Below, piece after piece: positions 1 to 30,110 of a stretch of 43,342 nucleotides of DNA. This DNA is from Candidatus Gastranaerophilales bacterium (GTDB lineage: Bacteria > Cyanobacteriota > Vampirovibrionia > Gastranaerophilales > Gastranaerophilaceae). The stretch lies in contig CALVAY010000015.1 of assembly GCA_944325665.1 (NCBI GenBank), forward strand, positions 1-43,342, written 5' to 3'. Numbering within the stretch: the first letter of the stretch is position 1; every line of letters begins with the position of its first letter. Both the position numbers and the translations under genes were made by a program. A model generated the notes under the pieces. That model ran no database searches, was not told the origin of the DNA, and saw nothing but the letters and a program-made list of their open reading frames with translations.

Positions 1-72
1 GCGTCTGATGCGATTCGAACGCATGACCTATCCCTTAAAAGGGGAGTGCTCTACCTGCTGAGCTACAGACGC
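1..72 (-). tRNA. tRNA-Lys (anticodon UUU)
   Basis: The reverse complement folds as a full cloverleaf: acceptor strand GCGTCTG pairing with CAGACGC, D stem GCTC/GAGC, anticodon loop CTTTTAA with anticodon TTT, and T arm ATGCG-TTCGAAT-CGCAT. The outermost anticodon-stem pair is a C-U mismatch and the other four pair. The 3' discriminator base lies just outside the window, so whether CCA is encoded cannot be seen. The first 14 bases of the gene recur in the tandem repeat directly upstream. Confidence 0.95.
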
Positions 73-103
73 AAATTCTAAACTTATTTAATTGTCATAT
101 CCA

Positions 104-166
104 TAGCTCAGCAGGTAGTTTTTGTGGACTTCGCCACTATCCTCGCTCTGCTCGTATATTGAGCTA
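104..166. other. tRNA-derived imperfect hairpin, copy 1
   Basis: The arms TAGCTCA (104-110) and TGAGCTA (160-166) pair at the base. GCAG/CTGC and GTGG/CCAC pair further in, around an ACTTCG loop. The left arm continues as TAGCTCAGCAGGTAG, which is the tRNA-Lys D-arm region in inverted orientation; the right arm is the 5' part of the tRNA-Lys sequence on the minus strand. Whether it is transcribed is unknown. Confidence 0.7.
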
Positions 167-204
167 CAGACGCAAATTCTAAACTTATTTAATTGTCATA
201 TCCA

Positions 205-267
205 TAGCTCAGCAGGTAGTTTTTGTGGACTTCGCCACTATCCTCGCTCTGCTCGTATATTGAGCTA
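205..267. other. tRNA-derived imperfect hairpin, copy 2
   Basis: This is identical in sequence to the hairpin at 104-166, displaced by exactly one 101-bp period. The identity of both copies means recent duplication, homogenisation or an assembly artefact. Confidence 0.7.
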
Positions 268-469
268 CAGACGCAAATTCTAAACTTATTTAATTGTCAA
301 TTCAAACGCAATCAAATCTTCAATTCCTGACTGCTTAATCAATATAACAAGAACAAAATTCTACGTCAAACATTTTTTTTAAAAAATTACCCGACTGTAA
401 TTCGCCAATCGGATTATTCAAATCATAGAATTTTGCTTAATATTAGAAATATACAGGAAAGGGAAAATT

Positions 470-1087
470 ATGAAGAAAACATTAGCATTACTTGCGGTAG
501 CAATTTTTATCTCGCAAAGCGCATTTGCAGCATGTCCGGTTAATTCACCTTGTGAAACAAAAAAACCATGCCAAGAAAAATGTACACAGCATAACGTGGC
601 AAAGGGTTGTGAAAATCCTAAAATGAAAAAAACATGCAAAACACCTGAAAAAAACACTATGTACGAAGATAACAAGTGCTTTTTTGACAATGAATATAAA
701 GCAATGAAAAAAGTTTTATGCTTAAGTCCGCAACAAGAAAGTGCAATTGACTGCATTTATGACAAATTTAAAAACCAAATGCAAATTATTCATATGCAAG
801 CAAACGAGAAACAAAATTGCCTATGCAAAGCAATAAACAATGGCGACAAATGCAACATGAAAACTTATAAAAAAGAATTAAAACAAATCAGAAAAGAAGC
901 AATGGAACAGTATAAATGCTTCACACAAGAAGTAAAAGCTCAACTTTGCAAAGACCAAATTAAATGTTTAAACAGATTTAACAGAGCCGAAAAAAGAAAA
1001 ATGAAACAGCTTGCAAAATATTGCACAAAACCTCATTTCCCATGTGATTGCGGCTCTAAAATGCACAGCGCTTGCGGATGTAACTAA
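470..1087 (+). CDS. Secreted cysteine-rich Spy/LTXXQ-like helical protein
   Basis: The 205-residue product starts with a clear signal peptide (Lys-Lys, a hydrophobic core, and cleavage after Ala-Phe-Ala near residue 20). The mature chain holds 20 cysteines in about 185 residues, in pairs such as CxC and CxxxC at both ends. A central stretch starting LSPQQESAIDCIYDKF resembles the helix pattern of periplasmic Spy/CpxP (LTXXQ) proteins, but the match is weak. The rest is rich in Lys, Gln and Asn and is probably helical. A purine-rich ribosome site (GGAAAGGG) precedes the ATG. It stands alone and ends in a shared terminator facing valS. A periplasmic metal-binding or disulfide-stabilised role is possible but not shown; I do not recognise an exact family. 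Confidence 0.85.
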   Translation: MKKTLALLAVAIFISQSAFAACPVNSPCETKKPCQEKCTQHNVAKGCENPKMKKTCKTPEKNTMYEDNKCFFDNEYKAMKKVLCLSPQQESAIDCIYDKFKNQMQIIHMQANEKQNCLCKAINNGDKCNMKTYKKELKQIRKEAMEQYKCFTQEVKAQLCKDQIKCLNRFNRAEKRKMKQLAKYCTKPHFPCDCGSKMHSACGCN

Positions 1088-1140: not shown

Positions 1141-3753
1141 TTATGATAATTTTGATATTAAATCATCTATTGTTTTAATTTCGCCCTCAACTTCAACAAC
1201 TCTTTGTTTTGTGGATTCAACAACCTCTTTGGGTGCAGAATTAACAAATTTTTCGTTCGACAAGCGTCCATTTAGCGAGTTAAGTTCAGCTTGAAGTTTT
1301 TGGATTTTTTTATTTTGTCTTTCAATTTCTTTTTGAATATCAATCAAACCTTCAAGAGGAACGATTATTTTTGTATCGGCAACCGTACAGAAAGCGCAGT
1401 GTTTTGAATTTGCATTTTCGCTTACAAACTCAACATTTTCAACCCTTGCAAGTCTTTTAATGTATGGAGTTATTTTTTCAAAAAGCTCTTTGTTGCCTTC
1501 AATTTTAATATCCATTTTTACCCCGACAGGAATATTGAAGTCGGCTCTTAAGTTTCTTAAAGACTTAATTGCTTCAAAAACAATTTCCATATTTTGTGCA
1601 TCATTCTCAAACGACAAATCTTCTCTAAATTGAGGGAAATCTGTTTTCATAAGAGCAATTTCAGTCTTTTCAACAGGCATCATCTGCCAAATTTTCTCTG
1701 TCAAGTGAGGCATGATAGGATGAAGCAATTTTAATGACTGCTCAAGCACATAAGTTAAAACTGCCTCATTTTTTTCAATTTTAGACAACTCGACATACCA
1801 ATCACAGTAATAATTCCAGAAGAAATCATACAAAATTGTTGCAACTTCGCCGATTCTATAGTTTTTAATGTTGTCATTAACTTCTTTTACAACTTTGTTT
1901 AAAGAATTTAAAATCCATTTGTCTGCAATAGACAAATTATTTAAGTCAAGTTTTAAATCTTTAGCAGATTTTGTTAAATTCATCAAAACAAAACGAGAAG
2001 CATTCCAGATTTTATTTGCAAAGTTTCTTCCGTACTCAAATCTTTCATTAGAAAGCTTAATATCTTGACCACCGTATGTACAAAGAGAAGTTAGAGTAAA
2101 TCTCATTGCATCACAGCCGTATTTTTCAATAATTTCAACGGGGTCAATTGTATTACCTTTTGATTTTGACATCTTCTGACCGTTTTCATCACGAATAAGA
2201 CCATGGATATAAACTGTTGAAAATGGCGGAACTTTTGTGAATTCAAGCCCCATTGTAATCATTCTTGCAACCCAGAAGAAAATAATATCAAAACCTGTTA
2301 CAAGAGTTGTAGTCGGGTAGAATTTCTTGAAATCATCACTGTTAACATCAGGCCAGCCCATTGTTTCAAAAGGCCAAAGCCCTGAAGAAAACCAAGTATC
2401 AAGCACATCTGTATCCTGTGTATAGTTTTTAGGATCAGGATTTTCTTCGGCTACAACCATTTCGCCTGTTTGATTATGATAATATGCAGGAATTTGATGT
2501 CCCCACCAAAGTTGACGAGAGATACACCAATCGCGGATGTTTTCCATCCACATTAAATAATTCTTTTCCCAACGAGATGGAACAAATTTAATTGAACCGT
2601 CTTTAACTTTTTCAATGGCAGCTTTTGCCAAAGGCTCCATTTTAACAAACCACTGCTCTGAAAGTAACGGTTCAATTGTCGTATTACATCTTTGACATTT
2701 GCCGACAGCATGCGGATGTTCGGTAATTCTAACCAAAACCTGATGAGCTTTTAGCATCTCAACGGTTTTTTCACGTGCTTCATACCTGTCTAAGCCTTGA
2801 ACATCGGGGTGAACCTCGGCACATGAAATCATTTTACCCATTTCATCTATTACTTTAATGGATTTTAAATTATGACGTCTGCCAACTTCAAAGTCATTCG
2901 GGTCATGAGCCGGAGTAATTTTAAGAGCGCCCGTGCCAAAGCTTTTATCAACATATTCATCAGCAATAATCGGTATTTCTCTTCCGGTTAAAGGTAAAAC
3001 ACAAGTTTTTCCGATTAAATCTTTATATTTGTAATCATTAGGGTTAACTGCAACTGCAACGTCCCCATACATTGTCTCAGGTCTTGTTGTAGCAATTACA
3101 ATAGCGCCCATCTCATCTTTTAGAGGATAGGATATTTCCCAAAGTTTACCGTCTTCGTTTTCATATTGTGTTTCAATGTCCGAAATAGCACTTTGGCAAC
3201 GAGGACACCAGTTAACAATATATGCGCCTTTATAAATTAAGCCTTTATTATACAGGTCAACAAAAACTTTTTTAACTGCACGAGAGCAGCCTTCATCAAG
3301 AGTAAAACGGGCTCTGGATAAGTCAAAAGACGCACCTAAGCTTTTAAATTGTCCTAAAATTCTGCTTTTATGGTCATTTGCCCACTCCCAAGTTATTTTA
3401 ACAAACTCTTCTCTACCTAGGTCATGGCGAGTTTTACCTTCTTTTGCAAGATGCTTTTCAACAACGTTTTGAGTAGCAATTCCGGCGTGATCGCACCCCG
3501 GCAGCCAAAGAGCTTCATAGCCGCACATTCTGTGGTATCTTGTTAAAATATCTTGTAATGTGCCATCCAGCGCATGCCCCATATGCAAAACACCTGTTAC
3601 GTTTGGCGGAGGAATAACGATTGAATAAGGCTCTTTTTTAGATTTATTATCAGCCTTAAAGCATTGGTTGTCTTCCCAAAACTTATAAATATCTTTTTCT
3701 ATCTCTCTTGCTTCATAAGTTGTTGCCATTTCAAGTGTTTGCGAATTATCCAT
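1141..3753 (-). CDS. valS: Valyl-tRNA synthetase
   Basis: This 870-residue class I aminoacyl-tRNA synthetase charges tRNA-Val in the cytoplasm. The HIGH signature is HMGH at residues 57-60, after PPPNVTG, and the KMSKS signature is at 527-531. WCPRC near 182-186 and CQRC near 353-356 are candidate zinc ligands. The CP1 editing domain with TTRPETMYGD lies at about 211-350. The last 70 residues form the Lys/Glu-rich coiled-coil arm typical of ValRS. The length is normal for bacterial ValRS. The gene is monocistronic, with a divergent TolC-like gene 96 bp upstream and a shared terminator downstream. No T-box leader is visible in the upstream gap. Confidence 0.97.
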   Translation of the reverse strand: MDNSQTLEMATTYEAREIEKDIYKFWEDNQCFKADNKSKKEPYSIVIPPPNVTGVLHMGHALDGTLQDILTRYHRMCGYEALWLPGCDHAGIATQNVVEKHLAKEGKTRHDLGREEFVKITWEWANDHKSRILGQFKSLGASFDLSRARFTLDEGCSRAVKKVFVDLYNKGLIYKGAYIVNWCPRCQSAISDIETQYENEDGKLWEISYPLKDEMGAIVIATTRPETMYGDVAVAVNPNDYKYKDLIGKTCVLPLTGREIPIIADEYVDKSFGTGALKITPAHDPNDFEVGRRHNLKSIKVIDEMGKMISCAEVHPDVQGLDRYEAREKTVEMLKAHQVLVRITEHPHAVGKCQRCNTTIEPLLSEQWFVKMEPLAKAAIEKVKDGSIKFVPSRWEKNYLMWMENIRDWCISRQLWWGHQIPAYYHNQTGEMVVAEENPDPKNYTQDTDVLDTWFSSGLWPFETMGWPDVNSDDFKKFYPTTTLVTGFDIIFFWVARMITMGLEFTKVPPFSTVYIHGLIRDENGQKMSKSKGNTIDPVEIIEKYGCDAMRFTLTSLCTYGGQDIKLSNERFEYGRNFANKIWNASRFVLMNLTKSAKDLKLDLNNLSIADKWILNSLNKVVKEVNDNIKNYRIGEVATILYDFFWNYYCDWYVELSKIEKNEAVLTYVLEQSLKLLHPIMPHLTEKIWQMMPVEKTEIALMKTDFPQFREDLSFENDAQNMEIVFEAIKSLRNLRADFNIPVGVKMDIKIEGNKELFEKITPYIKRLARVENVEFVSENANSKHCAFCTVADTKIIVPLEGLIDIQKEIERQNKKIQKLQAELNSLNGRLSNEKFVNSAPKEVVESTKQRVVEVEGEIKTIDDLISKLS

Positions 3754-7408: not shown

Positions 7409-7968
7409 TAAACACCTGCTTTCTGTATTAGACCCATACCCATTTCAAGTGCTTTGTAGTTAAGCTCTCTTAACTCGGGTTTAGCATCAAATTTCTTACC
7501 AAGAGCCATTTCCATAGCGTTTTTAATATCGCTTAATTGAAGAACATTAGTTGCACTAAGTAGAACACCTAATACAATAATGTTGAATACTCTTGCGCTT
7601 AACTGTTCGTTAGCGATTTTGTTAGCTTCAACAGCGATTATGCTCTTAGCTTCACAAGTTGGTTTTTTTGTACAAACAGATGAGTCATAAATAACAGTTG
7701 AGTTGGGACTTACATAGTCGCAGCATCTGTCAATTGCTCTATCTGAAAGCATAATAACTATATCACCTTTTGAAAATCTTGGTTCACCAATTTTTTCATC
7801 GGCAATTTGACAAAAAGCGATTGAAACACCGCCCCTTTGTTCTACACCAAAGTTTGGGATGTAAAGGATTTCTTTACCTGCTTCGTATCCGGCTTCAACA
7901 AGGATTTTCGCAACACTTTGAACACCTTGTCCGCCTTCACCTGCTAAAACTATTCTTGTTCTTGCCAT
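7408..7968 (-). CDS. 2-oxoacid:ferredoxin oxidoreductase, gamma subunit
   Basis: The 186-residue product starts MARTRIVLAGEGGQGVQSVA, with the glycine-rich GEGGQGV motif that marks the gamma domain of pyruvate/2-oxoacid:ferredoxin oxidoreductases. The following YIPNFGVEQRGGVSIAFCQI matches the conserved core. The gamma domain helps bind CoA and assemble the heterotetramer. It lies 3 bp downstream of the beta-subunit gene and overlaps the delta gene by one base. The length is normal for a separate gamma subunit. Confidence 0.93.
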   Translation of the reverse strand: MARTRIVLAGEGGQGVQSVAKILVEAGYEAGKEILYIPNFGVEQRGGVSIAFCQIADEKIGEPRFSKGDIVIMLSDRAIDRCCDYVSPNSTVIYDSSVCTKKPTCEAKSIIAVEANKIANEQLSARVFNIIVLGVLLSATNVLQLSDIKNAMEMALGKKFDAKPELRELNYKALEMGMGLIQKAGV

Positions 7969-7971
7969 AAT

Positions 7972-8727
7972 TTACTCCAATCCTTCTCTTTGAACAAAAT
8001 CTTTAACTTCAAAGAATTCTTCCATTGTTTTTAATCTATCCCAAGTTTGAACGTTGTTTGTTCTCCAGTTCAAAGGACATACAGATAGAACTTCAACAAA
8101 AGAAAAACCGCCCATATCAACGTTTTTAAGAGCTTTTTTGAATGTTGCTTTTAACTTTCTCAAGTTAGAAACAGAAGCTCTTGCAACGAATGATTTTTCG
8201 GGGTCAGCAATAGAAGCAACCATTTCAGCACCTTTAGCAGGACGACCTGTAACGTCGCAATCACGACCATAAGGAGTTGTTTCTGTTTTTTGACCAGGCA
8301 TTGTAGTTGGAGACATTTGTCCACCTGTCATACCGTAGTTAGTGTTGTTTGCAACGATGATAAGAAGATTTTCACTTCTTACTGAAGCGTTCACTAAGTG
8401 TTGTGAACCGATAGCCAAACCGCCGCCGTCGCCCATATACGCAATACCAACAACATCAGGGTTAGCACGAGTAACACCGTAGATAACCGGGGTTGTACGA
8501 CCGTGGTGAGTTTGAACTGTATCTAAGTTCATATAATTCCAAGATAAAAGAGAACATCCGATATCGCATCCAAATACAGCCTTTTCGTTAAGTCCTAATT
8601 CATCAATTGATTGGGCAAGAGTTTTTAATATCATGCCATGTCCGCAACCGGGACAGAATTTAGATGCACCGACCTCAGCATTTTGTGCCTTGGCTAAATC
8701 GGGCCCTTTTTCTAACATTTCAATCAT
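7972..8727 (-). CDS. 2-oxoacid:ferredoxin oxidoreductase, beta subunit (thiamine diphosphate-binding)
   Basis: The 251-residue product has FCPGCGHG at residues 24-31, the usual cluster-ligating start of the beta subunit. GCDIGCS and HGRTTPVIYG follow, then the thiamine diphosphate motif GDGGGLAIG (about 99-107) with the closing NNTNYGMTGGQ. It performs the decarboxylation of the 2-oxoacid together with the alpha subunit. The length and motifs fit the 2-oxoglutarate or branched-chain (KorB/VorA) class better than one-chain pyruvate synthases. It is 29 bp from the alpha gene and 3 bp from the gamma gene. Confidence 0.93.
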   Translation of the reverse strand: MIEMLEKGPDLAKAQNAEVGASKFCPGCGHGMILKTLAQSIDELGLNEKAVFGCDIGCSLLSWNYMNLDTVQTHHGRTTPVIYGVTRANPDVVGIAYMGDGGGLAIGSQHLVNASVRSENLLIIVANNTNYGMTGGQMSPTTMPGQKTETTPYGRDCDVTGRPAKGAEMVASIADPEKSFVARASVSNLRKLKATFKKALKNVDMGGFSFVEVLSVCPLNWRTNNVQTWDRLKTMEEFFEVKDFVQREGLE

Positions 8728-13105: not shown

Positions 13106-14530
13106 ATGGATATCAATTTAAATGATTTGCTCAAATCCCTTGGTATCAAAGACTCTTTTGATACAAGAGCAAAAGAAGCACTTGAAAAAGAAAAGGGAAA
13201 TGTAGATGATACAAGCATTTTTGACTCACAACAAAGCTTTGTAAGTCATTATAGTGAACAAATTTTTGGCGATAAAGACGAAGTGGATTTTCAGGACTTT
13301 GGCGATAATCTCGTTAAAAGCGGCTATGTCGAAAATGACGAAATTGTCGGATTGCAAGCACTTGTTGATAATAATGCCGACAATAAGTTAAGCAAGGACG
13401 AAGCAGAAAATCTGCTATCAACAGTGTATGCAAATGCAGCACCGGAACCCGAAGCGACAAAAACTCAAACGACTAAAGCACAGACACAAGAATCAGATAC
13501 GGCTGAAGAACTTTATGATACCGTTGAAGTTCAACCCTGGGGTACCGGCGAAGACGATTGCTTATCAAGAATTATACAAAAGCACGTTGACGGAATAAAG
13601 CTATATACCGACGACTATCATCAATATGTCGCTGAAACATGCAAGCTAAACGGCATTGAAGATCCAAATCTATTTTCTAACAAAGAAGTTAAATTGCCAG
13701 TTATGAAAAAGGATGACAACGGAGAAATAATCAAAGATGAAAACGGCAAAATACAGTTTTACAGTGAAGAAGAATTAAAAGAAATGAAAAAAACCGGTGA
13801 AGCCGGAAAAAATGGTTCTGCATCTTCTGAAGGATTAAAAGCAACACTTGATGCAAACGGCAAAGTTACGGGGTACACAACGCAAATTCTTAATGAAAAC
13901 GGAAGTGTGGAAAAAGAATTACATTACAATTCGGATAAAACTTTTGCAGGCTATACAACGTACAAATATAACGACGACGGACAAATTGCAAGCAAAAGAA
14001 ATTTCAATGACGAAAGTGAGTTGACAGATGCAACAACTTACAAGTATAACTCAGAAGGTAAAATACACAGCGAAGAAACAAGAGACAAAAACAATGAAAT
14101 TGTAAGTACAAAAGAATATGCTTATGACGAAAACGGAAGAATAACAAATATAATAACCCAAGATGTAAACGGACAAGTAACAGGGCAAGAAAAAACCGAA
14201 TATTTGGACGACGGAGCAGTTGAAACTACATTCCTAAATGAAAACGGTGAGCCAACAAAGGTAACAGTTAAAAGAGATACAACTATTGAAACAAAATATT
14301 ATGAAGAAAACGGCGAGATTAAATCTCAAAATATATCCGAGTACAACGAAAACGAACAAAAGGTTAAAGAAACTCTTCTCGATAAAGACGGCAACAATGT
14401 AAACATATACATGTATGAATACAATGAACAGGGTGTAAAAATAACTGAAAAAATCTTCGACAGCGAGAATAAACTCGTTAAAGAAAGAAAATTCGACCCG
14501 ACAACAGGTGAAGAAATAACTGATGGCTAA
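13106..14530 (+). CDS. EF-hand, LysM-like and YD-type repeat protein
   Basis: The 474-residue acidic protein has no signal peptide. A canonical EF-hand loop, DNNADNKLSKDE, occupies residues 88-99; the preceding FGDKDEVDFQDF region may be a degenerate partner. After a Thr/Gln-rich linker (110-135), residues 138-200 resemble a LysM domain (VQPWGTGEDDCLSRI, then a helix and LPVMKK). Residues 245-465 hold about ten repeats of roughly 20 residues with the consensus Tyr-x-Tyr-Asp/Asn-x-x-Gly-x-Ile, like RHS/YD or MORN-type beta repeats. AAAGGTAG precedes the ATG. It probably binds calcium and a carbohydrate or peptidoglycan; how it leaves the cell, if it does, is not evident. A second EF-hand gene follows at 14820. 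Confidence 0.75.
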   Translation: MDINLNDLLKSLGIKDSFDTRAKEALEKEKGNVDDTSIFDSQQSFVSHYSEQIFGDKDEVDFQDFGDNLVKSGYVENDEIVGLQALVDNNADNKLSKDEAENLLSTVYANAAPEPEATKTQTTKAQTQESDTAEELYDTVEVQPWGTGEDDCLSRIIQKHVDGIKLYTDDYHQYVAETCKLNGIEDPNLFSNKEVKLPVMKKDDNGEIIKDENGKIQFYSEEELKEMKKTGEAGKNGSASSEGLKATLDANGKVTGYTTQILNENGSVEKELHYNSDKTFAGYTTYKYNDDGQIASKRNFNDESELTDATTYKYNSEGKIHSEETRDKNNEIVSTKEYAYDENGRITNIITQDVNGQVTGQEKTEYLDDGAVETTFLNENGEPTKVTVKRDTTIETKYYEENGEIKSQNISEYNENEQKVKETLLDKDGNNVNIYMYEYNEQGVKITEKIFDSENKLVKERKFDPTTGEEITDG

Positions 14531-20997: not shown

Positions 20998-22639
20998 AAT
21001 CGTTAAAAGTTAAAGTAATTTTGAAATAATTATCTGAACAGTCAAGAGAAATATCTATATACATAGCTGCGCACAAGCCTTTTACAATGTACAGACCAAG
21101 ACCTGTCCCCCTTGTTGTTCTTGTTAATTCGGAGTCTGTCCTTATAAATTTATCAAAAATCTTATCCTGCATATTTTTTGCAATAGGCAAGGATTTGTTT
21201 TTTATCTCAACAGTCGGAATAGAATTAGCATTATATGCTCTAATAACAATCGGCTCGTCATCTTGATTGTACTTAACCGCATTATCGCACAGGTTAATTA
21301 AAATCTGCTCAAGCCTGTCAGAATCCGCATAGATATTTTTAAGGTCATCAGCCACATCTACAACAAATTTTGAGTTGTTTGAATTAGCATACAAAACAGA
21401 GTTTTCAATAGCTTCAGCCAGGTTTATTTCAACCTTGTTAAGCTGAATAGAAAAGCTTTCAATTTCAGGTACAACAAGCAAGTCCTCAACCATTCTTGAA
21501 AGCCTTTGCGCCTGCTGTTTTATAATCTTTAAGGATTTATTTTTTGTTTCATCATCAATTTTAATATCCTGACGCATTAACCTGCTGCAATAGCCTACAA
21601 TACTGGTTAGAGGGGTTCTAAACTCATGGCTTATAGCGTTAACCAAGTTTGTTCTAAATTCATTTAATCTTTCAAGCTCAACGTTTTTCTCGGACAAGTC
21701 ATGATAAGATTGGTGAATTTTATTTGCCATATAGTTAAATTCTTTTGCAAGGAAAACAATTTCATGTGGAGTAAAGGCGCTTTTTAACAGGTGAATTTTG
21801 CGCTCATAACTGCCTTTTGAAATCGCAATAATACCTTTGAACAACTGTCTGATGTTGATATAAAGGTAAAAAGTGTACATACCGACGATTGCAATAATAA
21901 AAATTGCAGCCAAAGAAAGTGCCAAAACTATTCTAAAGCGCGCTGTGTCAATTGTCGCATTTGTAATTTTCTCTGTTGTATTAACCATTACAACCCATTT
22001 AGGGTTTTTAAGGGCATAATAAGCGCTTGGCTGGTTTTTAAACTTGTTAAATAAATCCGAATTTTCAAAAATCATATTTTTTGGTAAATCGGATACCAAA
22101 GCAAAAAACTCAGGGGTTTCACCAACATTTGATGCAATTAATTTACCTTCTTGAGTTGCAATATATATCTGCCTTTTTTCGTTTTTATACCTTTTTACGA
22201 CAGCGTTTTGCATATTTGCAATGTCAATTTCACCCAAAAGAAAATATTCATCGTTTATTGGTGCATATATTCTGATTTTTGAGCCATCCTCGCTTGCAGA
22301 ATATATTTCATTTGGCATTTTTGAATTTGGTAAAATCTGCAAATTTTGGATATTGGTATTTGTACGCTCAATTTCAGATAAAAAATCAACCCTGTCCGAT
22401 GCGTACGGCATAAAAGTCAAAGCATCCGCTACTTGTTTTAAATTTGACCTTGAAAAGCTAAGGTAAGACTCAACATTTTCCGCAATTGAGCGTGAAATCT
22501 CTAACGCGCTGTAATTAAGCTCGCGTCTCAGTGTTTGCTGCTGTATGTTTGAGATAATAAGCCCGATAGTTACAAAGGGTATTAAAACGGCAAACAAAAG
22601 TACGATTATGATTTGTTGAGCAATTTTTAATCTTTGCAT
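20987..22639 (-). CDS. Membrane sensor histidine kinase (HAMP, HisKA, HATPase)
   Basis: The 550-residue kinase has a transmembrane span at about residues 8-30 and an extracytoplasmic sensor of about 200 residues. The latter has a Cache-like ending (ALKNPKWVVMVNTTEKI). A second span lies at about 235-262, followed by a HAMP region and a coiled coil. The H box is NAISHEFRTPLTSIVGY with phospho-acceptor His338. The N box NLCDNAVKYNQ and the ATP-lid G box TRGTGLGLYIVKG follow. It starts 2 bp after the response-regulator stop, so the two form a cognate pair. The ligand is unknown. Its end overlaps tadA by 11 bp. Confidence 0.93.
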   Translation of the reverse strand: MQRLKIAQQIIIVLLFAVLIPFVTIGLIISNIQQQTLRRELNYSALEISRSIAENVESYLSFSRSNLKQVADALTFMPYASDRVDFLSEIERTNTNIQNLQILPNSKMPNEIYSASEDGSKIRIYAPINDEYFLLGEIDIANMQNAVVKRYKNEKRQIYIATQEGKLIASNVGETPEFFALVSDLPKNMIFENSDLFNKFKNQPSAYYALKNPKWVVMVNTTEKITNATIDTARFRIVLALSLAAIFIIAIVGMYTFYLYINIRQLFKGIIAISKGSYERKIHLLKSAFTPHEIVFLAKEFNYMANKIHQSYHDLSEKNVELERLNEFRTNLVNAISHEFRTPLTSIVGYCSRLMRQDIKIDDETKNKSLKIIKQQAQRLSRMVEDLLVVPEIESFSIQLNKVEINLAEAIENSVLYANSNNSKFVVDVADDLKNIYADSDRLEQILINLCDNAVKYNQDDEPIVIRAYNANSIPTVEIKNKSLPIAKNMQDKIFDKFIRTDSELTRTTRGTGLGLYIVKGLCAAMYIDISLDCSDNYFKITLTFNDYVQ

Positions 22640-28787: not shown

Positions 28788-30110
28788 ATGGGGTTTAACA
28801 ATATAATATCTGTTATAAGCAACGACGAAGCATTAATTGAACAAATAAGCTCAAAGCTTGTTCTTTTAAGGGATTTAGATAAAATTATAAGCAATTCTTA
28901 CGAAGGCGCAATGGAATTTTTAAACAAAGAAATTCCAAACGTAATTATTCTGCATTGTCAAAAGGATGACGCCTTAGCACTTGAGCTTATTAAGAAAATA
29001 AGACAGGATAAAATCTTAAAACAAACCCCTATTTTACTTTTGGACGAATTTAACAGCAGAGAAACAATTATTGATGCTTTTGACTCCGGAATAAATGATA
29101 TGCTTGAATTCCCTTGCGAAAACCATCAGCTTTTAATCAGGACTATCTGGTGTATCCAAAAGGACGAACTAAATACAAACATACGGACAAATTCCGACTT
29201 TATGAAGCAGCTTGGCGTTCTAAACAAAAGCGGAATATATGAAAAAGACTACTGCAAAGACTTTCTTAAAAGCCAATTAGAAACAGTTAAAGAAAGAAAA
29301 ATGAATGCCTGCTTAATGCTTATTACACCAAAATTGGCAGAAAATTCTAATTTAGATAATTTTATTGAAGTTGTAAACAAGTCCGTAAGACTAAATGATA
29401 TTGTAGCAGCAAAAAATGATAACGAGTTTTATATATTCTTACCCAAAACAAAACTTAACGGAGTTTACCCCGTATTTGAAAGAATTAACAAAAACTTAAA
29501 TCAAACTTGCCAAACAAGCGCTTCAGTAATTGAGCTAAAGGGAGAATATCCCGAAAATATCGAAGAATTGCTTGAAAACTCACTAAAACGCGCAAAAGAA
29601 GAAACAAACGCTCTAATTGTAGCTTCAAGCGCATTTTTAAAAGACCCTAATGCAGGAATTAACCTTTCAAAGCAAAAACCCGTTGAGGCAAACAATTTAG
29701 ATATTGAGGTTTTAGCTAAGCACGCAGAAATTTCGCAAGGTGAAAAAGAAAATTCTAAAATATACAGACAAGCTTACAGGCAAAAATGCAAGGTTGTTTT
29801 TGAGCCTGTATTTGAAAAGTATCAAAACATTATTAATGCAAAAATAAAAGATGTTTCAACAAGATATGAAGCAACGGTAGATAAAACAGTTTTTGCAGCG
29901 CTTAAAAATAATGTTCGCGCAAGCCTTACAATTACATACGGCGGAATGTATAAAGCAAGAGTTGACAGTGCAATTATGCACTTTGGAATTGCAAAAAGTT
30001 CTAATACAATTGCCTTAGACTTTGTAGATTTGAACTTTAAAAAGCTTTCAGAAATTCTTGAAGAACTATATGGGGAATTTAAAAAATACCTCGAAACAAA
30101 CGCTAATTAG
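28788..30110 (+). CDS. Pseudo-receiver plus degenerate GGDEF protein
   Basis: The 440-residue protein begins with a CheY-like fold (ISVISNDEALIEQ at the start, TPILLLDEF at 80-88, AFDSGINDMLEFP at 97-109). The phospho-acceptor Asp is replaced by His56 (IILHC) and the conserved Lys by Phe108, so phosphorylation is unlikely. Residues 145-285 follow the GGDEF fold (SVRLNDIVAAKNDNEFYIFL), but the motif is NDNEF at 210-214, so diguanylate cyclase activity is unlikely. The last 150 residues are helical and unrecognised. AAGGAGT precedes the ATG. It may act as a protein-protein or ligand-sensing scaffold. The 3' end overlaps the opposing gene by 4 bp. Confidence 0.75.
   Translation: MGFNNIISVISNDEALIEQISSKLVLLRDLDKIISNSYEGAMEFLNKEIPNVIILHCQKDDALALELIKKIRQDKILKQTPILLLDEFNSRETIIDAFDSGINDMLEFPCENHQLLIRTIWCIQKDELNTNIRTNSDFMKQLGVLNKSGIYEKDYCKDFLKSQLETVKERKMNACLMLITPKLAENSNLDNFIEVVNKSVRLNDIVAAKNDNEFYIFLPKTKLNGVYPVFERINKNLNQTCQTSASVIELKGEYPENIEELLENSLKRAKEETNALIVASSAFLKDPNAGINLSKQKPVEANNLDIEVLAKHAEISQGEKENSKIYRQAYRQKCKVVFEPVFEKYQNIINAKIKDVSTRYEATVDKTVFAALKNNVRASLTITYGGMYKARVDSAIMHFGIAKSSNTIALDFVDLNFKKLSEILEELYGEFKKYLETNAN

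Follow-up and report, generated by a model that had tools for sequence, protein, structure and literature searches.

A candidate self-derived palindromic leader repeat at tRNA genes of the Gastranaerophilaceae

The repeat array upstream of tRNA-Lys

The window, i.e. the whole 43,342-nt stretch of DNA analysed here, is contig C15 of a 30-contig MAG, whose genus has named members labelled Candidatus Gastranaerophilales. It opens on a tRNA-Lys(UUU) gene (minus strand, 72–1), which ARAGORN misses because the contig edge cuts the gene, and 2.4 units of 101 bp lie upstream of this gene, at positions 59–299 (Table 1). The divergent gene at 470–1087 (plus strand) encodes a cysteine-rich protein of 205 aa, whose start resembles a signal peptide, and stands beside tRNA-Lys in most congeners too; it is adjoined by an 870-aa ORF (1141–3753, minus strand) that presumably encodes a valyl-tRNA synthetase, judging by eye.

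The first-pass annotation of this DNA had described two identical 101-bp units and a partial third, and a direct-repeat search returned the same picture: positions 59–159 and 160–260 are 100% identical and a partial third copy follows, with a 39-nt core repeated at 59–97, 160–198 and 261–299. Each unit is made up of a linker (L), which recurs with a TTGAAAATTAAATA-like sequence, nucleotides 1–14 of the tRNA, a small hairpin segment (X) and the D-arm copied in antisense. Read along the minus strand, the promoter is followed by a leader, by L, tRNA 1–14, X and antisense D-arm, by the same four elements once more, and lastly by the L that adjoins the tRNA. The 14-base tRNA copies reported earlier are present, as is the inverted D-arm copy TAGCTCAGCAGGTAG, which matches the tRNA at window positions 51–65 exactly over 15 nt. 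The antisense arm matches its own partner arm over a shorter stretch than the real tRNA. The 63-nt hairpin that had been proposed for each unit does fold better than shuffled sequences (z −2.7; z −5.1 for the whole 299 nt); its local stem amounts to 7–8 bp, or 12 bp if G-U pairs are counted.

Table 1. Features of the tRNA-Lys repeat array and its promoter in the window
Feature	Position	Strand	Basis
tRNA-Lys, anticodon UUU; 3' end = contig end	1..72	-	RF00005, 63 bits
Linker L adjoining the tRNA, TGACAATTAAATAAGTTTAGAATTT	73..97	-	direct repeat
Antisense D-arm copy 1, minus strand CTACCTGCTGAGCTA; complementary to tRNA nt 8-22	104..118	-	inverted repeat
X segment 1: small hairpin part, GTGG-CGAAGT-CCAC, and CGAGC-type repeat	119..159	-	repeat, folding
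tRNA nt 1-14 copy 1, GCGTCTGTAGCTCA	160..173	-	match to tRNA
Linker L, copy 2	174..198	-	direct repeat
Antisense D-arm copy 2	205..219	-	inverted repeat
X segment 2	220..260	-	repeat
tRNA nt 1-14 copy 2	261..274	-	match to tRNA
Linker L, copy 3 (outer edge of the array)	275..299	-	direct repeat
Sigma-70-like promoter TTGACG-17-TATATT, outside the array, kept across the genus	341..369	-	consensus match only

We also concur with the annotation on what the array is not. There is a single tRNA, of which the units contain 14 nt, and hence no tRNA array; whole 101-bp units are identical and unique spacers are absent, as would not be the case for a CRISPR; and the window units are 5' copies spaced 101 bp apart, which speaks against an att duplication. 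At the gathering score of Rfam 15, the start of the window matches tRNA only, and neither the unit nor the shared module described below has a match.

The exact copy number (2.4) is uncertain, since the tRNA sits right at the start of the window, which shares a 77-nt overlap with contig C28. This position, together with the finding that a tRNA is no more than 300 nt away from 11 of the 60 contig ends of the MAG (0.77 expected), could suggest that the array was created by the assembly at a contig end. However, the same units are found inside contigs in many independent MAGs of other species, and the congener assemblies that contain the unit bear contig names suggestive of different assemblers. 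The contig ends at tRNAs are better accounted for by real repeats, and we therefore dismiss an artefact as next to impossible, the exact copy number in the window excepted. The units explain the breaks that assemblies of this group show at tRNA genes, as well as the tRNAs missing from their annotation. At the end of contig C29, repeated 5' units of a tRNA are present and the tRNA gene itself is missing from the contig.

Recurrence at other tRNA genes, in the genus and in the family

The first-pass annotation had made the reality of the unit depend on its presence in close relatives. When 15 congeneric genomes were searched and their tRNA-Lys loci read, the unit was found in 11 of the 13 species with a resolved tRNA-Lys (the G001 and G006 assemblies gave no tRNA-Lys match), which excludes a chance repeat. 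Most species have one copy, G007 has 1.4 and the window genome 2.4. In G009 and G010, a similar promoter and the same tRNA are separated by a short, unit-free leader, which in G009 may reflect a secondary loss.

Units are likewise present at tRNA-Val and tRNA-Phe in nearly all congeners; their number is 1 to 3 or more, and the copies within one genome are identical or almost so, linker included. This bears out the recent duplication or homogenisation that had been deduced from the window alone. At tRNA-Phe, two different X types exist, and G003 and G008 have both of them in series, which implies that units formed repeatedly. As judged from these sequence patterns, the units form again and again and are amplified and homogenised.

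To describe the extent of the phenomenon, we read 1,654,251 of the 1,654,326 bases of the window's genome, in which ARAGORN recognizes 38 tRNAs, and scored as positive any tRNA gene that has, no further than 250 nt away and with other tRNAs masked, a copy of its own sequence in direct (12 nt or more) or inverted (11 nt or more) orientation. Half of the bacterium's tRNA genes (19/38) bear such pieces of themselves at their ends, compared to 0.15 expected from shuffles. Other genera of the family gave 31 positives among 108 tRNAs that were chosen by covariance score and not at random (0.20 from shuffles), with rates differing by genus (0/18 in G020, 9/16 in G019), and the sister families tested gave none (0/43 tRNAs in seven genomes of the order's other families). 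The direct repeats, the recurrence in congeners and the excess over shuffles together rule out chance. The upstream architecture is common to many tRNAs of the window's genome, often as two tandem copies about 92–105 nt apart, and a tandem-repeat survey places 22 of the 49 near-tandem repeat regions of this genome at a tRNA. Of 21 flanks, 14 find their best match in their own tRNA and 5 match another tRNA equally well (best or tied, 19/21), and the X segments differ from locus to locus. A mirror image of the unit exists at 3' ends, where the tRNA is followed by the trailer/terminator, an antisense T-arm, X, a copy of the tRNA 3' end and the trailer again; such units were seen at Arg-CCT, Glu and Lys tRNAs. 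The annotation, which was right in part, had overlooked both this genome-wide and family-wide extent and the mirror-image 3' versions.

Related structures were observed elsewhere in the genome. On contig C24 (8343–8699), the 3' end of the tmRNA gene (7963–8358) is copied twice downstream, with nested palindromic sequence between the copies, which resemble the tRNA 3' units. A dispersed palindromic mosaic repeat of about 110 bp, CCTGTCGGCAAGGCTC..., in places tandem, occurs at C1 80848, C5 53198, C6 71, C11 7254, C18 34790 and C20 18969, and contig C22 has at its end (13280–13469) about two copies of an 89-nt unit, TTTTGGGTCGCTGGGGGTATAATAATAG..., that has no Rfam match.

Could the copies at tRNA-Lys be remnants of attachment sites left by integrative elements, a known source of tRNA fragments (PMC9897764)? 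Downstream of tRNA-Lys, on contig C28 (6330–6994), two tandem units of about 290 bp each contain copies of 42–44 nt of the tRNA 3' half as well as a piece of the D-arm into which 85 nt of palindromic sequence are inserted, and these two copies start at the anticodon loop, like classical att sites. The upstream units, for their part, consist of 14-nt 5' copies with an inverted arm and have no element between them, and many tRNAs have comparable units, at 5' as well as at 3' ends. We reject an att duplication for the 5' units on the basis of their anatomy and regard this origin as highly improbable overall. On contig C18, the 3' part of a Met tRNA is duplicated exactly over 45 nt (21062–21106 and 28871–28947, 7.8 kb apart), as expected if an integrated element had its att sites here.

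A sequence-conserved mini-hairpin, CTCTGCCGAGNAAAA-stem-loop-TTTTNCGAGAGG, is part of X in several relatives and, in the window's genome, at one Met tRNA; it can also be written CTCTGCCGAG-NAAAA-stem-TTTTN-CGAGAGG and occurs at many tRNAs. Of 286 genomes of the order, 152 contain this module; they represent 31 genera, all of the Gastranaerophilaceae, and the reversed control gave no match. The stem pairs of the module covary. In the sampled tRNA loci, the module follows the tRNA-end fragment and points inward, on the same strand as the tRNA at 5' ends and on the opposite strand at 3' ends. In three genomes with 23–25 copies, most copies are situated within other dispersed palindromic repeats and not at tRNAs.

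These properties (the spread over 31 genera and many tRNAs, the constant inward orientation in the sampled loci and the dispersal in three genomes) would suit a mobile palindromic element, REP-like or MITE-like, that an enzyme would move and insert into the hairpin loops of tRNA genes. The family-wide module shows that part of the diversity of X is mobile, something that simple template switching does not account for. As an explanation of the units themselves, an element of this kind is nevertheless unlikely. The window X is devoid of the module and has no second location anywhere in its genome, and the arms derived from a tRNA are peculiar to the tRNA at their locus and do not travel with the element. 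Transposition is further weakened by the fact that the window's genome (G000) shows no match to PF01797 (Y1, TnpA_REP), nor do 9 of 12 other genomes searched, and none to PF00078 (RVT_1); on these grounds, a RAYT/IS200-type or reverse-transcriptase origin was rejected. Carriage by phages was rejected as well, both the module and the Lys pattern being absent from IMG/VR. Note that the Lys-unit pattern also matched Neobacillus pocheonensis (L039 4211–4284), where one end of an annotated tRNA-Asn reads GGCTCAGCAGGTAG; this match was set aside because it sits in an ordinary tRNA cluster.

Constraint on the units and predicted folding of the pre-tRNA

When the Lys, Val and Phe units of the genus were compared, the antisense arm and the tRNA copy turned out to be the least variable parts (6 of 45 and 4 of 40 variable columns, respectively, as opposed to 44 of 112 for X and 55 of 93 for the linker); the antisense arm differs in this respect both from X (p 0.0013) and from the linker (p 2e-7). 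At tRNA-Val, it retains a conserved TACCAAC that is unpaired in the local consensus hairpin and next to which the loop is variable. Conservation therefore tracks complementarity to the tRNA, through selection or through templated correction, and the latter could by itself, without selection, keep the variation of this arm low. Covariation inside the Lys and Val units is thin: at Val, one pair has changed on both sides in three related sequences, and at Lys one pair in one sequence, which is not above shuffles.

At Lys, Val, Phe and other tRNAs, the putative promoter is located outside the array. Lying between promoter and tRNA, the units should belong to the pre-tRNA and be transcribed as its leader. 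If transcribed as predicted, they could interfere with tRNA folding or control it. In equilibrium folding, which ignores co-transcriptional folding, proteins and modification, pre-tRNA-Lys without a unit (G009, G010) forms the cloverleaf with a predicted probability of 0.7, as compared to about 1e-11 to 1e-12 for every unit-bearing leader. The predicted loss arises because the antisense arm takes the D-arm and because parts of the leader and of the tRNA re-pair. Across the window's genome, the acceptor stem is predicted to be lost in the presence of a 150-nt leader for 12 of the 14 tRNAs scored with a 5' unit, but also for 8 of the 21 others (p 5e-5); at least one of these others, Val-GAC, does have a near-tandem repeat at its 5' end, which escaped the flank test. 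The tRNAs affected in this calculation include single isoacceptor genes that must work, so that folding order, processing or proteins would have to resolve the conflict. This raises the question of how essential tRNAs mature from leaders that are predicted to unfold them. Taken together, the conserved antisense arm and the predicted alternative fold are possibly those of a cis-acting element for folding or processing of the pre-tRNA.

Origin of the units and comparison with known systems

Hairpin-forming template switching is an established type of mutation (PMC8794818), and the units show an inverted copy of adjacent sequence, flanked by a direct repeat that comes from the same locus. From this anatomy, we infer that they originate from template switches. 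Synthesis that copies the end of the tRNA-Lys gene would switch template inside the D-arm, copy a stretch backwards to give the antisense D-arm, and then resume upstream of the tRNA, leaving a linker, tRNA 1–14, X and the antisense arm ahead of an intact tRNA. Similar events would have taken place many times, at 5' ends and, mirror-imaged, at 3' ends of many Gastranaerophilaceae tRNAs. Tandem amplification and homogenisation, through recombination or slippage, would have followed, and X would have gained nested mini-hairpins, one of which is now widespread in the family. In the pre-tRNA, the antisense arm may pair with the tRNA-like arm of its own unit or with the real D-arm; the leader hairpin could be the first to form during transcription and be processed away afterwards, with the conserved antisense arm serving as a cis folding or processing element. 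The snap-back replication product put forward in the first-pass annotation is the best-supported origin, since self-templated inverted copying of this kind is seen at many tRNAs, at 5' and 3' ends alike; the tRNA mimic and the small RNA that the annotation also named are further candidates.

The alternative that weighs most is that the units are a neutral by-product: tRNA genes would be hot spots of hairpin-primed template switching in this lineage, and the units would be gained and lost without any function and owe their similarity to recombination and templated correction. The varying copy number, the presence or absence of the units in different species and the near identity of the copies are compatible with this, as is the symmetry between the two gene ends, which is expected for a process that operates on DNA, and compensatory changes can be produced by template switching itself (PMC8794818). 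On the other hand, the tRNA-complementary arm is far less variable than X or the linker, even at the Val positions that are unpaired in the local hairpin, and the units persist throughout the genus despite the damage they are predicted to cause to the pre-tRNA. We consider neutrality a real prospect, with clearly less than an even chance. The reading that we prefer, to which we assign a probability of roughly 0.55, is that the units are a lineage-specific, self-derived palindromic tRNA leader repeat that arose by template switching, was amplified in tandem and may play a part in folding or processing. It is doubtful whether one can go further and see in these self-derived antisense leaders, continually renewed by template switching and tandem amplification, a folding switch that would control the maturation of a large share of the family's tRNAs.

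The ingredients of these units are known singly, as hairpin-forming template switches, short palindromic repeats and tRNA fragments. Rickettsia palindromic elements are small palindromes inserted in or near genes, RNA genes included, and one sequence is common to many sites; the units described here, by contrast, are locus-specific. REP and other short palindromic repeats (GTAG and CGTC families, PMC3733652) are also short, non-coding palindromes, at times clustered or in tandem with flanking DNA, and their stems undergo compensated changes as observed here. However, REPs are dispersed copies of one sequence, whereas our arms take the sequence of their own tRNA and the window X is confined to its locus; even the family-wide module has no evident GTAG or CGTC tag, and no Y1 transposase was found in the genome. 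The tRNA fragments of integrative elements (PMC9897764) share with our units the partial tRNA copies adjoining an intact tRNA, but differ from the 14-nt 5' copies with an inverted arm, arranged in units of about 100 bp with no integrated element between them. In the open-access journal literature searched, no account of such tRNA-flanking units was found, including for Gastranaerophilales/Melainabacteria. The closest parallels are template-switch mutations (PMC8794818) and tandem inversion duplications, with which the units have in common a short inverted copy of a neighbouring sequence, a palindromic junction, a flanking direct repeat and perfect or compensated stems. Unlike these, the units are a regular feature of tRNA gene ends in one bacterial family, are amplified in tandem and carry nested modules. 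This systematic self-copying at tRNA ends within one family appears to be new, and it would constitute a natural, recurrent record, at defined loci, of hairpin-forming template switching, a process that is rarely caught.
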